Origin: Thermococcus sp. | Lineage (GTDB): Archaea > Methanobacteriota_B > Thermococci > Thermococcales > Thermococcaceae | DNA: 45,383 nucleotides | Reading direction: 5' to 3' | Assembly (NCBI GenBank): GCA_015523195.1 | Contig: WAKU01000018.1 | Location: forward strand, 1 to 45,383 | Shown: positions 9,709-35,366 of the stretch, one piece after another | Layout of the letters: each line of letters opens with the position of its first letter | How positions within the stretch are numbered: the stretch's first letter is position 1 | Translations under genes and position numbers: made by a program | Notes under the pieces: generated by a model | Seen by the model: only the letters and a program-made list of their open reading frames with translations | Databases searched by the model: none | Told to the model about the DNA's origin: nothing

Positions 9709-11898
9709 TCACTTCCTCTTTCTGAGGAGGAGTGGGAGTGCTGCGAGGGCTATTATAGCTGCTGGCCCGCAAATGTGCCAGCCGCCCTTGCTGCTACTGC
9801 TCGAAGGCGTGCTTGACGGGCTTGAACTACTGCTCGGACTGCTCGATGAAGTACTGCTTGATGAGGAAGAACTCGAAGTACTACTACTCGAAGAACTCGA
9901 AGTCGAAGAAGTACTGCTCGAACTGCTCGAAGAGGACGAGGATGAAGTACTGCTCGAAGAGCTCGAAGTAGAGGAAGTCGACGTAGTACTGCTCGACGAG
10001 GAAGAAGTCGGGGCGAAATTGAAGTTCAGTGTTTTAACGGCCTTGTTCCCGTAGAAGTCCACCGCTATGAACTTCACCTCGTAGTTGGACTTGTTGAGGG
10101 CCGGGAGCTGTACCACGTAGTACTTGTTGTTCTCCTTCCCGCTCGTTGGTTCAGCCGGGAACAGGGACATCTTCTTGTAGGATACCACGTGGCCGTTGCC
10201 GTCGTATATCCGAGCGTAGAGGTCCCTTATCCCGATGTTGTCGCTGGCCATGATGTAGACCTTTGTGGAGACCCCCGGCCTCGGCTTGCTCGGGAGGGTG
10301 TAGGCCACGGTCAGCTGGGGCTTCTGGGTGTCCTTTCCCTTGGAGAAGACTATCTGCCACTTGCCCAGGGGAACGGTGATGTTGAGGAGGACGTAGTGGA
10401 CGCCGCCGATGGTTCTCTCACCGATGAGCTTGTAGGTCAGGTTCGTAGCGGAGGGGTCAATACCGGCGCCCTCGGGGACGGAGAAGACCACCGGGCCGCT
10501 GGCCGGCTTGTATTCGTTTATGAACTCGACGGCCGTTCCGTCCGGGCCGTGGTGTCTGAAGACTATGAACCTCTGGGGAACGGGGAGGGATGTGAAGTTG
10601 CCGAAGAGCGTGCCGAACTCCTTCATAACGGGCGTCATCTTAACCGTACCGTTCAGGTACACCGTTATCAGGTTGCTGCCGTACCAGGTCGGCTTCCTCC
10701 CCGGCTTGCTCGGCGGGTTCGTCTCCTTATCCGGGGCGCCCGTGGCCGTCAGCGTGGCAAACCAGTGGACGTGCCCCTCGGGGTCAGTGTAGATGACGGT
10801 CTTGTCGTTGTGGATGTGGCCGCTCATTATGAGGGTTATGTTGTACTTCTCGACGTCCTCTAAGAAGCGCCTCGCTATGTTCGCGGTGGGGTGGTTCGGC
10901 CCCCCGCTCCAGTACCAGGTGACGAGGTTTAAGAGCCTGTTCCAGCTTGTGTCGTTGAAGGCGCTGCCGTTCACGTAGCCGCCGTACTTTCCAAGGGACG
11001 CCTTGTACCAGAACGGGTGGTGGACGAGGACTATGACGGTGTAGCCCTTGTGGTTCTCAAGGACGTTCTCCATCCACTCGAGCTGGGCCATGCTCGGGTG
11101 CCCCTCGTCGCCCCTGCTGTCGAGGCCGATTATCAGGAACCTACCGATGGTGTCGTAGAAGTAGCGCGGGCCTATGAGCTTCGTGAAGACCGTTGGGGGA
11201 TCGTCGTGGTTTCCCTTTATGTTCAGGATGGGCTTGCCGGCGAGGGCGGTTCTCTCCATTATGTGGAGCATCACCATGTAGCCGGCGTAGTCGCCGGCGG
11301 TATCAACGTCGTCACCCGTGTTTATTATGATGCTGGCGTTGGGGTTCATAGCCCAGTATGTGTAGGCGCTGTCCGCGGCCACCGCGCTGTGGAGGGGAAT
11401 CGGGTTGGAGCAGTACTGGGCGATCTTGAATATGTCCCTCTGGAAGTAGTTCCCGCATACGTAGCCCACCTTTGCCCCGCTTGTTATGTGGGTGTCGCTT
11501 ACCTGGGCGATGTTGAGCACGGTGGGCAATTTGGCCATCACGTAGAGGCCGTTGGGGATTATGGTCTGCCCGTTCGAGGTGTTGACTATGAGGAAGTAAT
11601 CACCCGGAACGACGTCCTCCGGAACCTTTGCCTCTATCTCACCGGCTGAATCCGTGCCGACTATGGAGAGCTTGTACGGGCCGTGGAGGATGGATATTAT
11701 CCCAAGCCCCGTGATCTGAACGCCTTTCTGAGGTGTCAGTGTTATGGTTCCGCCGGGGGTTGTTACAGCCGGCACCCCAGGGGCTGGCTTTACGAGCACC
11801 CCGCTGTAGGTGTAGCTGACCTTCGCTGAGGCAGCCTGCATCCCCCACAGGGCTCCCAAAATAAACACTACAAGCACAAGAGCCTTCAGTGACTTCAT
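9709..11898 (-). CDS. Secreted metallophosphoesterase with Ser-rich linker and CGP-CTERM tail
   Basis: About 729 residues from ATG 11898, set by GGTGA upstream. An N-terminal signal peptide (about 25 residues) is followed by a beta-rich domain, then a calcineurin-like phosphoesterase domain from about residue 130. Its motifs are VSDTHIT, NTGDDVD, IKGNHDD, VLVHHPFW and SGHIHND, giving all five metal-binding blocks. A beta domain, a Ser/Thr linker of about 75 residues and the tail CGPAAIIALAALPLLLRKRK follow. The tail is the CGP-CTERM sorting signal of Thermococcaceae, expected to be processed for surface anchoring. The substrate is unknown. The last 250 bp are almost identical to those of the gene at 33378-35366. 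Confidence 0.9.
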   Translation of the reverse strand: MKSLKALVLVVFILGALWGMQAASAKVSYTYSGVLVKPAPGVPAVTTPGGTITLTPQKGVQITGLGIISILHGPYKLSIVGTDSAGEIEAKVPEDVVPGDYFLIVNTSNGQTIIPNGLYVMAKLPTVLNIAQVSDTHITSGAKVGYVCGNYFQRDIFKIAQYCSNPIPLHSAVAADSAYTYWAMNPNASIIINTGDDVDTAGDYAGYMVMLHIMERTALAGKPILNIKGNHDDPPTVFTKLIGPRYFYDTIGRFLIIGLDSRGDEGHPSMAQLEWMENVLENHKGYTVIVLVHHPFWYKASLGKYGGYVNGSAFNDTSWNRLLNLVTWYWSGGPNHPTANIARRFLEDVEKYNITLIMSGHIHNDKTVIYTDPEGHVHWFATLTATGAPDKETNPPSKPGRKPTWYGSNLITVYLNGTVKMTPVMKEFGTLFGNFTSLPVPQRFIVFRHHGPDGTAVEFINEYKPASGPVVFSVPEGAGIDPSATNLTYKLIGERTIGGVHYVLLNITVPLGKWQIVFSKGKDTQKPQLTVAYTLPSKPRPGVSTKVYIMASDNIGIRDLYARIYDGNGHVVSYKKMSLFPAEPTSGKENNKYYVVQLPALNKSNYEVKFIAVDFYGNKAVKTLNFNFAPTSSSSSSTTSTSSTSSSSSSTSSSSSSSSSSSTSSTSSSSSSSTSSSSSSSSTSSSSPSSSSSPSSTPSSSSSKGGWHICGPAAIIALAALPLLLRKRK

Positions 11899-11928
11899 GG
11901 GGTTCACCGGGCATCATAGGTTGCCCAC

Positions 11929-13387: not shown

Positions 13388-13849
13388 ATGGAAGTCCTGT
13401 GGGAGAAAGAGGTTGACGCTTCGAGCATAGTGGTTTCGCCGAGGCCGGTCTGGAAGTGCCGTGCCTGCCCCATGTATGGTAAAAGGCCTTCATGCCCTCC
13501 CCACGCCCCGGACTGGAGGGAAGCTAAGGATTGGGTCGGGAGCTTTAGGAAGGCCCTACTCGTGAAGTTCTCAATAAACATGGATGACTTTGAGGAGGAA
13601 AAGCGGAAGGTTCTCCTCTGGCTTCTCAGGAGGGAAGCCGAACTTTTCAGGGAGGGCAAGCTCTACGCCATGGCCCTCTTCCCGGGCAGCTGCAACCTCT
13701 GCGACGACTGCCCCTTCGAGCGCGGTCAAGCATGCAGGATGCCGGAAAAGGTGAGGCCGAGCGTTGACGCCGTGGGAATAGAGCTGAGCTCCCTCGTGGA
13801 TATAGACTTCTCCGAGAGCGTCCTCTACGGGCTGATAATGGTGGAGTAG
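13388..13849 (+). CDS. DUF2284 cysteine-rich metal-binding protein
   Basis: A 153-residue protein with two cysteine clusters: WKCRACPMYGKRPSCPPHAP near residues 24-43 and SCNLCDDCPFERGQACRMPE near residues 98-117. This is the DUF2284 pattern, a family predicted to bind a metal or Fe-S cluster. The middle holds a hydrophobic strand and a helix (FRKALLVKFSINMDDFEEEK). A TATA-like element lies at about 13350-13357. It is followed after only 8 nt by the CARF-like gene, so the three genes at 13388-15292 are probably one operon. Its function is unknown. Confidence 0.8.
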   Translation: MEVLWEKEVDASSIVVSPRPVWKCRACPMYGKRPSCPPHAPDWREAKDWVGSFRKALLVKFSINMDDFEEEKRKVLLWLLRREAELFREGKLYAMALFPGSCNLCDDCPFERGQACRMPEKVRPSVDAVGIELSSLVDIDFSESVLYGLIMVE

Positions 13850-13857
13850 GTGGTAGC

Positions 13858-14343
13858 ATGATCCACGTTGCCCTGCTTGGAAGGACCCCCTGGGCCCTCG
13901 TGAACACTTACTACGCCTCCCTCATGAGGGATGGAAAGCCGAGAAAGGTCGTTGTCGTTACGGAGAGGAGGTACTCAAAGAGCCTCCCCAAGGTGATCGC
14001 GGCAATCAGAGCCATATCTGAGGCGTTCTCCTTCTCCCCCGAGGTTGAGACGAGAGTGATCGAGGACGACGACTTCGCGGGCGCGGAGAGGGTCTTCACC
14101 GAGCTCTTCAGAGAGATAAACGGCGAGGAGGTCGTTATAAACATGACCTCCGGGAGGAAGGCCCTCGTCGCTGCCGCGATAATCCAGGGCAGAAAGGCCA
14201 ACACTAAGAAGGTTCTCTACATGGCGCTCCTCGACGTGGCCTTCCCCAACAGGCCCTATATGATGCTTCCCAAGCATCTGCAGGTGCTGAAGAACTTCTT
14301 AGGTGGTGGCAATGGAGAGGTCAGTGGTGATCGAAAAGCCTGA
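13858..14343 (+). CDS. CARF-like (CRISPR-associated Rossmann fold) protein
   Basis: A 161-residue protein with the layout of a stand-alone CARF domain. The first strand and ligand loop are HVALLGRTPWALVNTYYA, a second strand is KVVVVTER, and the conserved CARF motif appears as VVINMTSGRKALVAAAI (residues 92-108). CARF domains bind cyclic oligoadenylates made by type III CRISPR complexes. Stand-alone CARF proteins of this size may act as receptors or as ring nucleases. The start follows GGTGGTAGC. Its 3' end overlaps the PIN gene by 32 nt. Other Rossmann-like families cannot be excluded without a profile search. Confidence 0.55.
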   Translation: MIHVALLGRTPWALVNTYYASLMRDGKPRKVVVVTERRYSKSLPKVIAAIRAISEAFSFSPEVETRVIEDDDFAGAERVFTELFREINGEEVVINMTSGRKALVAAAIIQGRKANTKKVLYMALLDVAFPNRPYMMLPKHLQVLKNFLGGGNGEVSGDRKA

Positions 14344-15292
14344 GCTTCAGATACTCATAAACCTCCTCCAGGACTACGGTATAACCGTTTCCTTCCCCCT
14401 CTACGGAACAACCCTGCTCAGGGCCTTTCCCTCCCGGAGGGGCTATACCGTTGAAGTCCTCGCCAGGAGGGGGGACTTTCGGTCGCGGCATCCTGAGCTG
14501 CCCTCGTACCCGGACTTCTACGAGACCTTCATATCCTCCGGGATAATCCCCTACGAGAACATAGAGGACTTCGAGAGGGCCCTCGAAATGTACAAACTCC
14601 TGAAGAAGGGTGTGGCCTTCGCCCCAGATACCAACCTCTTTTACCACCGCTTCATCTCCTCCTACAAGCCCCTCAGGGGCTACCCGATAGTCGTTGCCGA
14701 GGCAGTTAAGAACGAGATAGAGGGCGCCATGAACTACAAGTACAGGGCCCAGTTCCTCCACGAGCTGATGAACATCGTTGAGAACGGCCACCTCCTGCGG
14801 GAGCTCAACAATAGGAGGACTAAGAAGAGCAGGAAAGCTGCCTACATAGCCCTGAAGGAGTTCGAGGCACTGAAGGACAGGATAGTCTTAGCGGAGAGCT
14901 ACGGGGAGGGGCACAACAACGACGAGATAATAGTCAAGACGCTCAAGCACTACGACGAGATGAGCCCGGCCCTGGTGGTCTTTCTGACGGCGGATCTTGC
15001 CGTAACCGACGTGGCGAGGATGGAGGGCCTGGAGTACTTCCTCTTTGAGTACCCGAGGGCAGCGCTCGGGCGCCATGAGGTAACGGCATATCAGTTGAGA
15101 ACGCTCCTCTTCAACCTCGCCGCCGTTTTCGGCCTCATTGACATAAACGGGACGACGGTTTACGGTGAGTTCGGGGGGAAGACCCGGCTGAACGAGCTCA
15201 AGCTCATAATCCGGGACGAAGGCCTTTACAGGGACTTCACCTTCCACCTCGAACTCGGGAGGAGACTGATCGGAATAATGGGTAGGGGTTGA
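14312..15292 (+). CDS. PIN-domain ribonuclease-like protein
   Basis: A 326-residue protein starting at ATG 14312 behind GGTGG, inside the end of the CARF-like gene. A roughly 100-residue N-terminal region of unknown fold is followed by a PIN nuclease domain. The acidic residues are D106 in FAPDTNLF, E130 or E135 in VVAEAVKNEIE, D204 in GHNNDEIIV, and D228/D233 in LTADLAVTD. PIN domains are Mg2+-dependent RNases. A C-terminal stretch of about 75 residues follows. The coupling to a CARF-like gene suggests an RNase controlled by a nucleotide signal, an inference from context. Confidence 0.75.
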   Translation: MERSVVIEKPELQILINLLQDYGITVSFPLYGTTLLRAFPSRRGYTVEVLARRGDFRSRHPELPSYPDFYETFISSGIIPYENIEDFERALEMYKLLKKGVAFAPDTNLFYHRFISSYKPLRGYPIVVAEAVKNEIEGAMNYKYRAQFLHELMNIVENGHLLRELNNRRTKKSRKAAYIALKEFEALKDRIVLAESYGEGHNNDEIIVKTLKHYDEMSPALVVFLTADLAVTDVARMEGLEYFLFEYPRAALGRHEVTAYQLRTLLFNLAAVFGLIDINGTTVYGEFGGKTRLNELKLIIRDEGLYRDFTFHLELGRRLIGIMGRG

Positions 15293-33377: not shown

Positions 33378-35366
33378 TCACTTCCTCTTTCTGAGGAGGA
33401 GTGGGAGTGCTGCGAGGGCTATTATTGCTGCCGGCCCGCAAATGCGCCAGCCGCCCTTGCTGCTACTGCTCGAAGGAGTGCTTGACGGGCTTGAACTACT
33501 GCTCGAACTGCTTGGGGATGAAGTACTGCTTGATGAGGAAGAACTCGAAGTACTACTACTCGAAGAACTCGAAGTCGAAGAAGTACTGCTCGAACTGCTC
33601 GAAGAGGACGAGGATGAAGTACTGCTCGAAGAGCTTGAGGAGCTTGAGCTGGTCGTGGTCTGGGGCTTTGTGAGGGGTATCATGTCGACGGTGGCCCTCT
33701 TGCCTTTGTTGGCGTCGTAGCTCTTGAGCTGCTCCTCCTGGGTCGGCTTGAACCAGCTCGGGACGAGGAGATCCATAACGCGCGGGGCAACACCGGCTAT
33801 AATCGCGTCCGAATCCCCGCCGCCTATCTTCCACTGCGCGGCCTTGACCTGGACGTCGCGCCACTCGTCAATGCCGAAGCCGTCTTGAGAGCCGACGAGG
33901 ACGCTTATCCTGTCGTCTGGGCTCAGGTTGCCGATGTACTTGGCCGGCACGAGGGCCGTTATCGTGTTGGTGCTCAGGTCTGCGCTGACCTTAACGTCGT
34001 CGAGAACTGTTCCGTTGGCGAGGATGAGCTTGTGGGTCCAGCCGCTGATCCTGAAGGCGACGTCCCACGGGTGATCTGGGTCGATGTTAACGTTGCTTCC
34101 CGGCCCCTTGGGGGAGAGCTTTATCGCGGAGGTGTTGCCGCCCTTCTTTACATCGAGGTAGGTCTCGATGATCTGGAGGCTGAAGCCGTTCGGCCCGTTC
34201 CACGGGTTGCCGCCGAGGTTCTTGAAGTGGTACTGGAAGACGTAGTAGGGGCCCATCTTGGATATGTCAACACCGGTCAGGTCAAAGAGGCCGGTGTGGT
34301 TGAACACCGGGTCGGTTGGGTAGGTGTAGGTTCCCGGCCCGTGATCGTCACCGGTCGGATCGGAGATGCTGTAGAGCTTCTTCGGAACACCGTACTTGGC
34401 GACCAGCGTAGCCCAGTGAAGGAGGTTGTTGACGAACTGCGGGCCGTCGAGCTTAACGCCGTGGTAGAGCGGGCTCCATGTGGGCTCGTAGTCGCCGTAG
34501 GGGCTCTCACCGCTGACGATGAGGAGGCTGTGCTTGCCGTTGTCGAGCTGGACTATCTGGGCCGCGAGGAGCGGGAAGACACCGGTGTCACCGGCAAGGT
34601 AGGCGTTGGCAGGTGGATCGTTGTTCTCAACGATGGTACCGTTTGAGCTCGTAACGACTATCCTGTAGGTGTCCTTGGGCTTCTCAGTGGCGGTGAGCTT
34701 GTGCCAGTTGCCCTGGTCGTCCACCCAGGCAACGACACCGGGCCCGTGGTAGAGCACTTTACCACCGTTCTGGAAGTCGTTAACGATAACGGACATAAGC
34801 GGTGTGTCCGGGTCGGGGTTCACGTGCCCGACGACACGGTAGCCGGCACCGGCGTTGCTCGTCGGGTCTTCAACTGAACAGAGGTCGACCCTGAGGTTTC
34901 CGTAGCCGAACTGCTCAAGAACGGCGTCGACAACGTCCTGAACCTGGACGCCGCTTCCGTAGTCACTGTCCGCGGCCACCCAGAGAACCTTGCCGCCCTG
35001 AGCAAACCAGTTCTTTATGGCCTGGATCTCATCTGGTGTGAAGGGACTGCTCGGCTGGCCGAGGATGAGCACGTCCACGTTGGCGAGAGCGTCGGCCGTT
35101 ATCGTGTCGGCGAGGTGCTCGATGCTCGCGTTCTCGAACATCCCCTCTGGGCCGAAGTAGGCCCACTTCATATCCCCAACGCCCTCGATGATCGGCGGGG
35201 CAAGGGTCTTGGTTGTATTGTTCACGGTTATAGTCGGCGGATTGACGAGGTACTTGGCGTTCTCGCCGTGGGCGAGGTCCACTGCAACGGTCGTAGCGCT
35301 GGCCATGGCGAATCCAAAAACTCCGAAAATAACGAAAGCGGCCATTAAAACCGCTAGCCTCTTCAT
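33378..35366 (-). CDS. Secreted CGP-CTERM protein with glucodextranase DOMON-like region
   Basis: About 662 residues from ATG 35366 (GGTGATACC upstream; a start at 35390 is open). A signal peptide (LAVLMAAFVIFGVFGFAMAS) is followed by a Rossmann-like region resembling DUF4350 or GATase-like folds (VDVLILGQPSSPFTPDEIQA; FAQGGKVLWVAADSDYG). From about residue 335, SDPTGDDHGPGTYTYPTDPV and FDLTGVDISKMG match the glucodextranase-like DOMON domain found in archaeal surface sugar-related proteins. A Ser/Thr linker and the CGP-CTERM tail end the protein. No glycosidase catalytic domain is seen, so a binding or scaffold role is likely. Confidence 0.85.
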   Translation of the reverse strand: MKRLAVLMAAFVIFGVFGFAMASATTVAVDLAHGENAKYLVNPPTITVNNTTKTLAPPIIEGVGDMKWAYFGPEGMFENASIEHLADTITADALANVDVLILGQPSSPFTPDEIQAIKNWFAQGGKVLWVAADSDYGSGVQVQDVVDAVLEQFGYGNLRVDLCSVEDPTSNAGAGYRVVGHVNPDPDTPLMSVIVNDFQNGGKVLYHGPGVVAWVDDQGNWHKLTATEKPKDTYRIVVTSSNGTIVENNDPPANAYLAGDTGVFPLLAAQIVQLDNGKHSLLIVSGESPYGDYEPTWSPLYHGVKLDGPQFVNNLLHWATLVAKYGVPKKLYSISDPTGDDHGPGTYTYPTDPVFNHTGLFDLTGVDISKMGPYYVFQYHFKNLGGNPWNGPNGFSLQIIETYLDVKKGGNTSAIKLSPKGPGSNVNIDPDHPWDVAFRISGWTHKLILANGTVLDDVKVSADLSTNTITALVPAKYIGNLSPDDRISVLVGSQDGFGIDEWRDVQVKAAQWKIGGGDSDAIIAGVAPRVMDLLVPSWFKPTQEEQLKSYDANKGKRATVDMIPLTKPQTTTSSSSSSSSSSTSSSSSSSSSSSTSSTSSSSSSSTSSSSSSSSTSSPSSSSSSSSPSSTPSSSSSKGGWRICGPAAIIALAALPLLLRKRK

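Follow-up and report, generated by a model that had tools for sequence, protein, structure and literature searches.

Two overlapping genes in the window (the whole stretch of 45,383 nucleotides of Thermococcus sp. DNA analysed here) probably encode an RNase that is gated by a ligand and built from two subunits, a member of the CRISPR CARF-PIN family that belongs to a separate and old lineage able to do without Cas10. To our knowledge, nearly all that is understood of CARF domains concerns the reading of cyclic oligoadenylate made by Cas10. A predicted CARF/PIN RNase in two subunits, conserved in most Thermococcaceae and in many methanogens without Cas10, points to another archaeal signal. Both proteins are small and come from thermophiles, so that ligand-capture and activation assays should be simple, and the genus of the carriers has genetic tools.

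The CARF and PIN proteins and their locus

The 161-residue protein was assigned to the CARF superfamily on a profile match together with a Rossmann-like fold that matches solved CARF structures. It is recovered by the PADLOC model CARF_m1--CARF (PDLC01971) with an E-value of 4.7e-67 and, more weakly, by the models of Csa3, Card1, Crn1 and many other CARF families; a Pfam search gave Csa3_N below threshold only. Its AF2 model (pLDDT 77, of moderate confidence and weak beyond residue 124) was matched by Foldseek to Can2, Card1, Csm6, SiRe_0806 and ring nucleases including Sis0455, with E-values down to 5e-6. The CARF assignment made in the first-pass annotation is thus upheld, and no confident match to a non-CARF family emerged from the profile search. 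The protein consists of the CARF domain only, with no DNA-binding region within its 161 residues. Like the ring nuclease Crn1 (Sis0455, Sso2081) it is a stand-alone CARF of similar size with GRK in the second loop, but Crn1 has no partner nuclease, and the split CARF reaches 15.6 bits against the NCBIfam Crn1 cut-off of 125.

The second protein scores slightly over the gathering threshold of Pfam PIN_4, also matches the PIN portion of PADLOC CARF_m1--CARF_PIN, and was modelled by AF2 with a pLDDT of 90.5. Among the acidic residues previously listed for it, four are invariant in the aligned PIN proteins (Table 1), E130 is not conserved, and D233 is invariant in the clade of the window only; as read from the alignment, the nuclease site is intact, with predicted metal-binding acids in a PIN fold. 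The best PDB match of the model is SiRe_0806 with cA4 (E 1.7e-7, 346 alignment columns including gaps), an alignment which, set against the 326-residue query and judged from the column count, appears to cover the N-terminal connector as well as the PIN domain. For the PIN protein SiRe_0806 was found by fold comparison only, as searches of the PDB with the single sequence and with the split-PIN profile (A4) returned nothing meaningful.

The ORF coordinates agree with the 32-nt overlap and the motif VVINMTSGRKALVAAAI as first described. An alternative GTG start at 14303 would give a PIN protein of 329 instead of 326 residues, and GGTGGT precedes the start of both genes. No CRISPR-like repeat array is present in the window, where most of the repeats detected are Ser-rich coding ones, and the Cas10 of the same genome, a Csm1 whose GGDD motif is intact, is encoded on a different contig (C66), consistent with the original placement of the pair outside any visible CRISPR locus.

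Table 1. Features of the CARF/PIN locus (positions in the window)
Feature	Position	Strand	Remarks
DUF2284 metal-binding protein, upstream neighbour	13388..13849	+	Pfam E 9e-32; ends 8 nt before CARF start
CARF gene, predicted sensor subunit, 161 aa	13858..14343	+	ORF; contains VVINMTSGRKALVAAAI
CARF motif I, G8-R-T-P-W-A-L-V-N16, predicted first ligand loop	13879..13905	+	clade signature GR[ST]xWAxxN
CARF motif II, T97-S-G-R-K-A102, predicted second ligand loop	14146..14163	+	T97, G99, R100 and K101 invariant in alignments A1 and A5
Overlap of CARF 3' end and PIN 5' end, 32 nt with ATG start	14312..14343	+	sequence
PIN-domain nuclease gene, 326 aa: connector (about 1-100), PIN, C-terminal extension	14312..15292	+	ATG start
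PIN acidic residue D106	14627..14629	+	invariant, 82/82 aligned PIN proteins
PIN acidic residue E135	14714..14716	+	invariant, 82/82 aligned PIN proteins
PIN acidic residue D204	14921..14923	+	invariant, 82/82 aligned PIN proteins
PIN acidic residue D228	14993..14995	+	invariant, 82/82 aligned PIN proteins

A two-gene lineage beside the fused CARF-PIN proteins

Thermococcales also encode fused CARF-PIN proteins of about 480-530 residues, one of which was tested against PADLOC CARF_m1--CARF_PIN (PDLC01973) and matched with E 1.8e-210. The split CARF and the split PIN each match one half of that model. By hhalign, the split CARF corresponds to positions 1-150 of a fused protein (99.6%), and residues 65-294 of the split PIN to positions 230-457 of that protein (96.5%). 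In profile comparisons the N-terminal 100 or so residues of the PIN protein align with the same region of other split PINs at 98% and, more weakly, with the fused-chain connector at 92%; this region, initially regarded as new, is accordingly the connector that lies between CARF and PIN in the family. Fused and split forms share identical acidic residues and the same order of CARF, connector, PIN and C-terminal extension. They differ in that the fused form is one chain, occurs in cas10-bearing genomes, mostly near cas10, and carries GTSPxAVxN, whereas the split form consists of two genes without cas10 linkage and carries GR[ST]xWAxxN. All nine full-length fused paralogs of Thermococcales come from genomes with cas10. 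In eight cases cas10 is less than 20 kb away, and for the ninth (G104) the contig is too short to tell. One further fused paralog near cas10 (G010, L164:13049-14071) is just 340 residues long; its CARF and connector are joined directly to the C-terminal region and the PIN domain is absent, apparently through an internal deletion.

The split pair is a separate CARF-PIN lineage according to trees of both proteins, which agree in setting a split clade apart from type III-linked forms: its 58 core members are separated from fused and other forms with support of 100/97 for PIN and 98/93 for CARF. In all 58 core loci CARF and PIN are separate genes, and no fusion occurs within the clade, so that the two-gene architecture recognised at the outset was correctly read but, far from being unusual, is standard throughout a large clade of archaea. 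With few exceptions among 70 loci, the two genes overlap or directly adjoin each other. The first ligand loop distinguishes the clade as well, since GR[ST]xWAxxN is found in 57 of the 58 members (one with C for R), the sole exception being a truncated ORF, against 1 of 23 other CARF-PIN relatives; outside the clade this loop is GTSPxAVxN-like.

Values of dN/dS between 0.06 and 0.13 were obtained for both genes in two species pairs, and point to strong purifying selection on CARF as well as PIN. The retention of the pair across archaeal phyla, taken with these values, places the observation far beyond chance. These data bear on the idea that the pair is a ligand-independent relic engaged in basal RNA processing. 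A precedent exists in VC1899, an orphan Can2/Card1-like CARF nuclease reported as not regulated by cA4 (PMC7969007), which like the split pair has no type III CRISPR association but is bacterial and a single chain. The ligand-loop residues are nevertheless invariant, selection is strong in both proteins and the CARF gene is retained together with the PIN gene, which makes such a relic improbable.

Distribution in archaea and relation to Cas10

The pair was found in 79 of 94 Thermococcales genomes (65 of the 74 of high quality), CARF and PIN remaining neighbours as the adjacency check had asked, and it is near-universal and mostly single-copy across the Thermococcaceae genera. Within this order, none of the nine genomes of genus g9 (probably Pyrococcus) has the pair, nor does G019. 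The complete genomes without the PIN gene also lack a CARF of split type. In G019, only 77 bp separate the DUF2284 gene from a TIP49-like gene which, in relatives, is found on the far side of the pair, indicating that CARF and PIN were lost together in a clean joint deletion. In another genome (G092, L163:6594-7626) the split PIN is broken after about residue 195 by an insertion of about 1 kb with transposase-like ORFs, and the CARF is intact.

Outside Thermococcales, the pair occurs in Helarchaeota, Archaeoglobus, Methanofollis and Methanoculleus (Methanomicrobiales). A sample of 394 genomes of the Methanoculleus phylum gave strong matches in 46 and weaker ones in a further 18 (64 in all); CARF is upstream on the same strand in all 30 loci that were read, mostly with a 4-nt overlap with PIN. 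A short VapC-like PIN gene is located between CARF and PIN in three loci of this phylum (L230:2499-2969, L236:2499-2918 and L240:1086-1502). Weaker relatives, likewise split, are found in genomes resembling those of haloarchaea and within type III loci of methanogens. In L248, L249 and L253 the split CARF and PIN are beside RAMP-like genes and are followed by a third gene of about 490-516 codons, whose product in L253 also gives weak CARF-profile matches.

The small upstream gene that overlaps the PIN gene, and the joint loss of the two, could suggest a system like toxin-antitoxin modules, in which CARF would neutralise PIN as VapB does VapC, and CARF loss or ligand binding would free the toxin. 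We regard this as very improbable: the upstream partner is a CARF with conserved ligand loops rather than a VapBC-type antitoxin with a DNA-binding domain, the pair is close to universal and mostly single-copy in Thermococcaceae genera, and it has no phage match and no close plasmid match. The plasmid search returned only distant relatives of the PIN protein, encoded by eight plasmids of haloarchaea (H1-H8), and the phage records gave no match to the pair; an origin of the pair from mobile elements was rejected on the same grounds.

Cas10 was searched for with Cmr2, Csm1 and palm-domain models. No Cas10 is detectable in 42 of the 65 high-quality Thermococcales carriers (40 if two fragments count as Cas10), and about one third of Thermococcales carriers, including the genome of the window, have it. 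Among the nine high-quality genomes that lack the pair, six have Cas10, so that no positive association between the two appears in this set (Fisher p 0.14), and seven of the nine pair-less g9 genomes contain Cas10 sequence. Absence from MAGs may reflect incompleteness, and the high-quality Thermococcales set is thus the firm part of these counts, to which the Methanoculleus phylum adds 35 of 46 strong carriers without Cas10 and the genomes behind the first distant loci 8 of 8 (at least three of them shared with the Methanoculleus-phylum set). Two marks of a type III cyclic oligoadenylate effector, a position near cas10 and fusion in a single chain, are missing from the split pair.

We therefore consider it unlikely that the pair is an ordinary type III ancillary RNase activated in trans by cA4/cA6 from a Cas10 elsewhere in the genome. 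It does belong to the same family as the cas10-linked fused CARF-PIN and as SiRe_0806, which was crystallised with cA4; its own genome encodes the Csm1 mentioned above; and some divergent split pairs lie in a type III locus (L253) or 7-16 kb from a cas10-like gene (L259, L260). Against this stand the carriers without Cas10 in both groups, the nine g9 genomes that lack the pair despite Cas10 sequence in seven of them, and the pocket motif, which is altered across the entire split clade. A response to cyclic oligoadenylates, which had been put forward as one possible function, cannot be the function shared by the clade since most carriers have no Cas10, and it is possible in the genome of the window in view of its GGDD-containing Csm1. 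More generally, a separate lineage that does not need Cas10 implies that the ligand is probably not, or not only, a cyclic oligoadenylate made by Cas10.

Proposed function, neighbouring genes and known systems

For the two-subunit RNase that we favour, we propose the following course, by analogy with fused CARF effectors. Translation of the CARF sensor and the connector-PIN effector would be coupled, and the two would join in a complex with an interface predicted from homology. The ligand, a nucleotide or an RNA end, may be held by a CARF dimer between the GR[ST]xWAxxN and TSGRKA loops; known CARF ligands include cyclic oligoadenylates. By way of the connector, the ligand-bound CARF would turn on the metal site of PIN, and the activated PIN would presumably cut RNA and slow growth under stress or infection.

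Tentatively, the pair may belong to a CRISPR-independent archaeal signalling system in which a nucleotide or RNA-end signal of non-Cas10 origin is sensed by a stand-alone CARF subunit gating a separate PIN RNase. In Methanomicrobiales and Archaeoglobi a HAD phosphatase would be the third component and could serve, for example, in removal of the signal or in processing of cleaved RNA ends. In the Methanoculleus phylum, a HAD-IA phosphatase gene comes after PIN in 29 of the 30 loci that were read, in most cases overlapping its stop codon. No HAD ortholog was found near the pair in Thermococcales, where the HAD paralogs have about 30-40% identity and inconsistent linkage, and a HAD phosphatase was rejected as partner in this order; the operons may consequently differ in function. 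A different HAD-like gene is upstream of DUF2284 in genus g8. Between PIN and HAD, a protein of about 215 residues without Pfam match is encoded in two loci (L212:5297-5944 and L240:2468-3121) and broken in L211.

The DUF2284 gene had been thought a possible member of the unit. It is present in all 74 high-quality Thermococcales genomes, those without the pair included, and is kept in G019, which makes it a neighbour of the pair and probably not a functional component. It was rejected as a required part also because an ORF separates it from CARF in several Thermococcus genomes, where this ORF encodes a membrane-like product of about 150 residues (L150, L152).

Among known proteins, SiRe_0806 of Sulfolobus islandicus (PDB 9jxw and 9jxx, deposited as PIN domain-containing protein, with cA4 bound in the crystal) is the solved structure closest to the PIN model and is matched by the CARF model too, but it is a single chain of 429 residues with sequence similarity too low for the split-PIN profile. 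RtcR combines CARF, AAA+ and HTH, its CARF ligand being 5' tRNA fragments that end in a 2',3'-cyclic phosphate (PMC7790460); it resembles the split pair in using a CARF domain outside CRISPR and differs in having no nuclease subunit. Members unlinked to CRISPR-Cas were reported in every CARF family by Makarova et al. 2014 (PMC4012209), and CARF_m1 is already catalogued in PADLOC as a stand-alone CARF. In the literature searched, the main 2020 CARF classification (Makarova) aside, we found no description of the CARF/PIN pair, its Cas10 independence, its pocket signature or the HAD partner; the CRISPR-free split lineage appears undescribed there, and part of it may already be on record.

Finally, identical Ser-rich coding repeats are present at two places of the window 23.5 kb apart (9845-10005 and 33460-33647). 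The first site is within a secreted phosphoesterase-like protein (9709-11907, minus strand), and the two sites suggest two related surface proteins.
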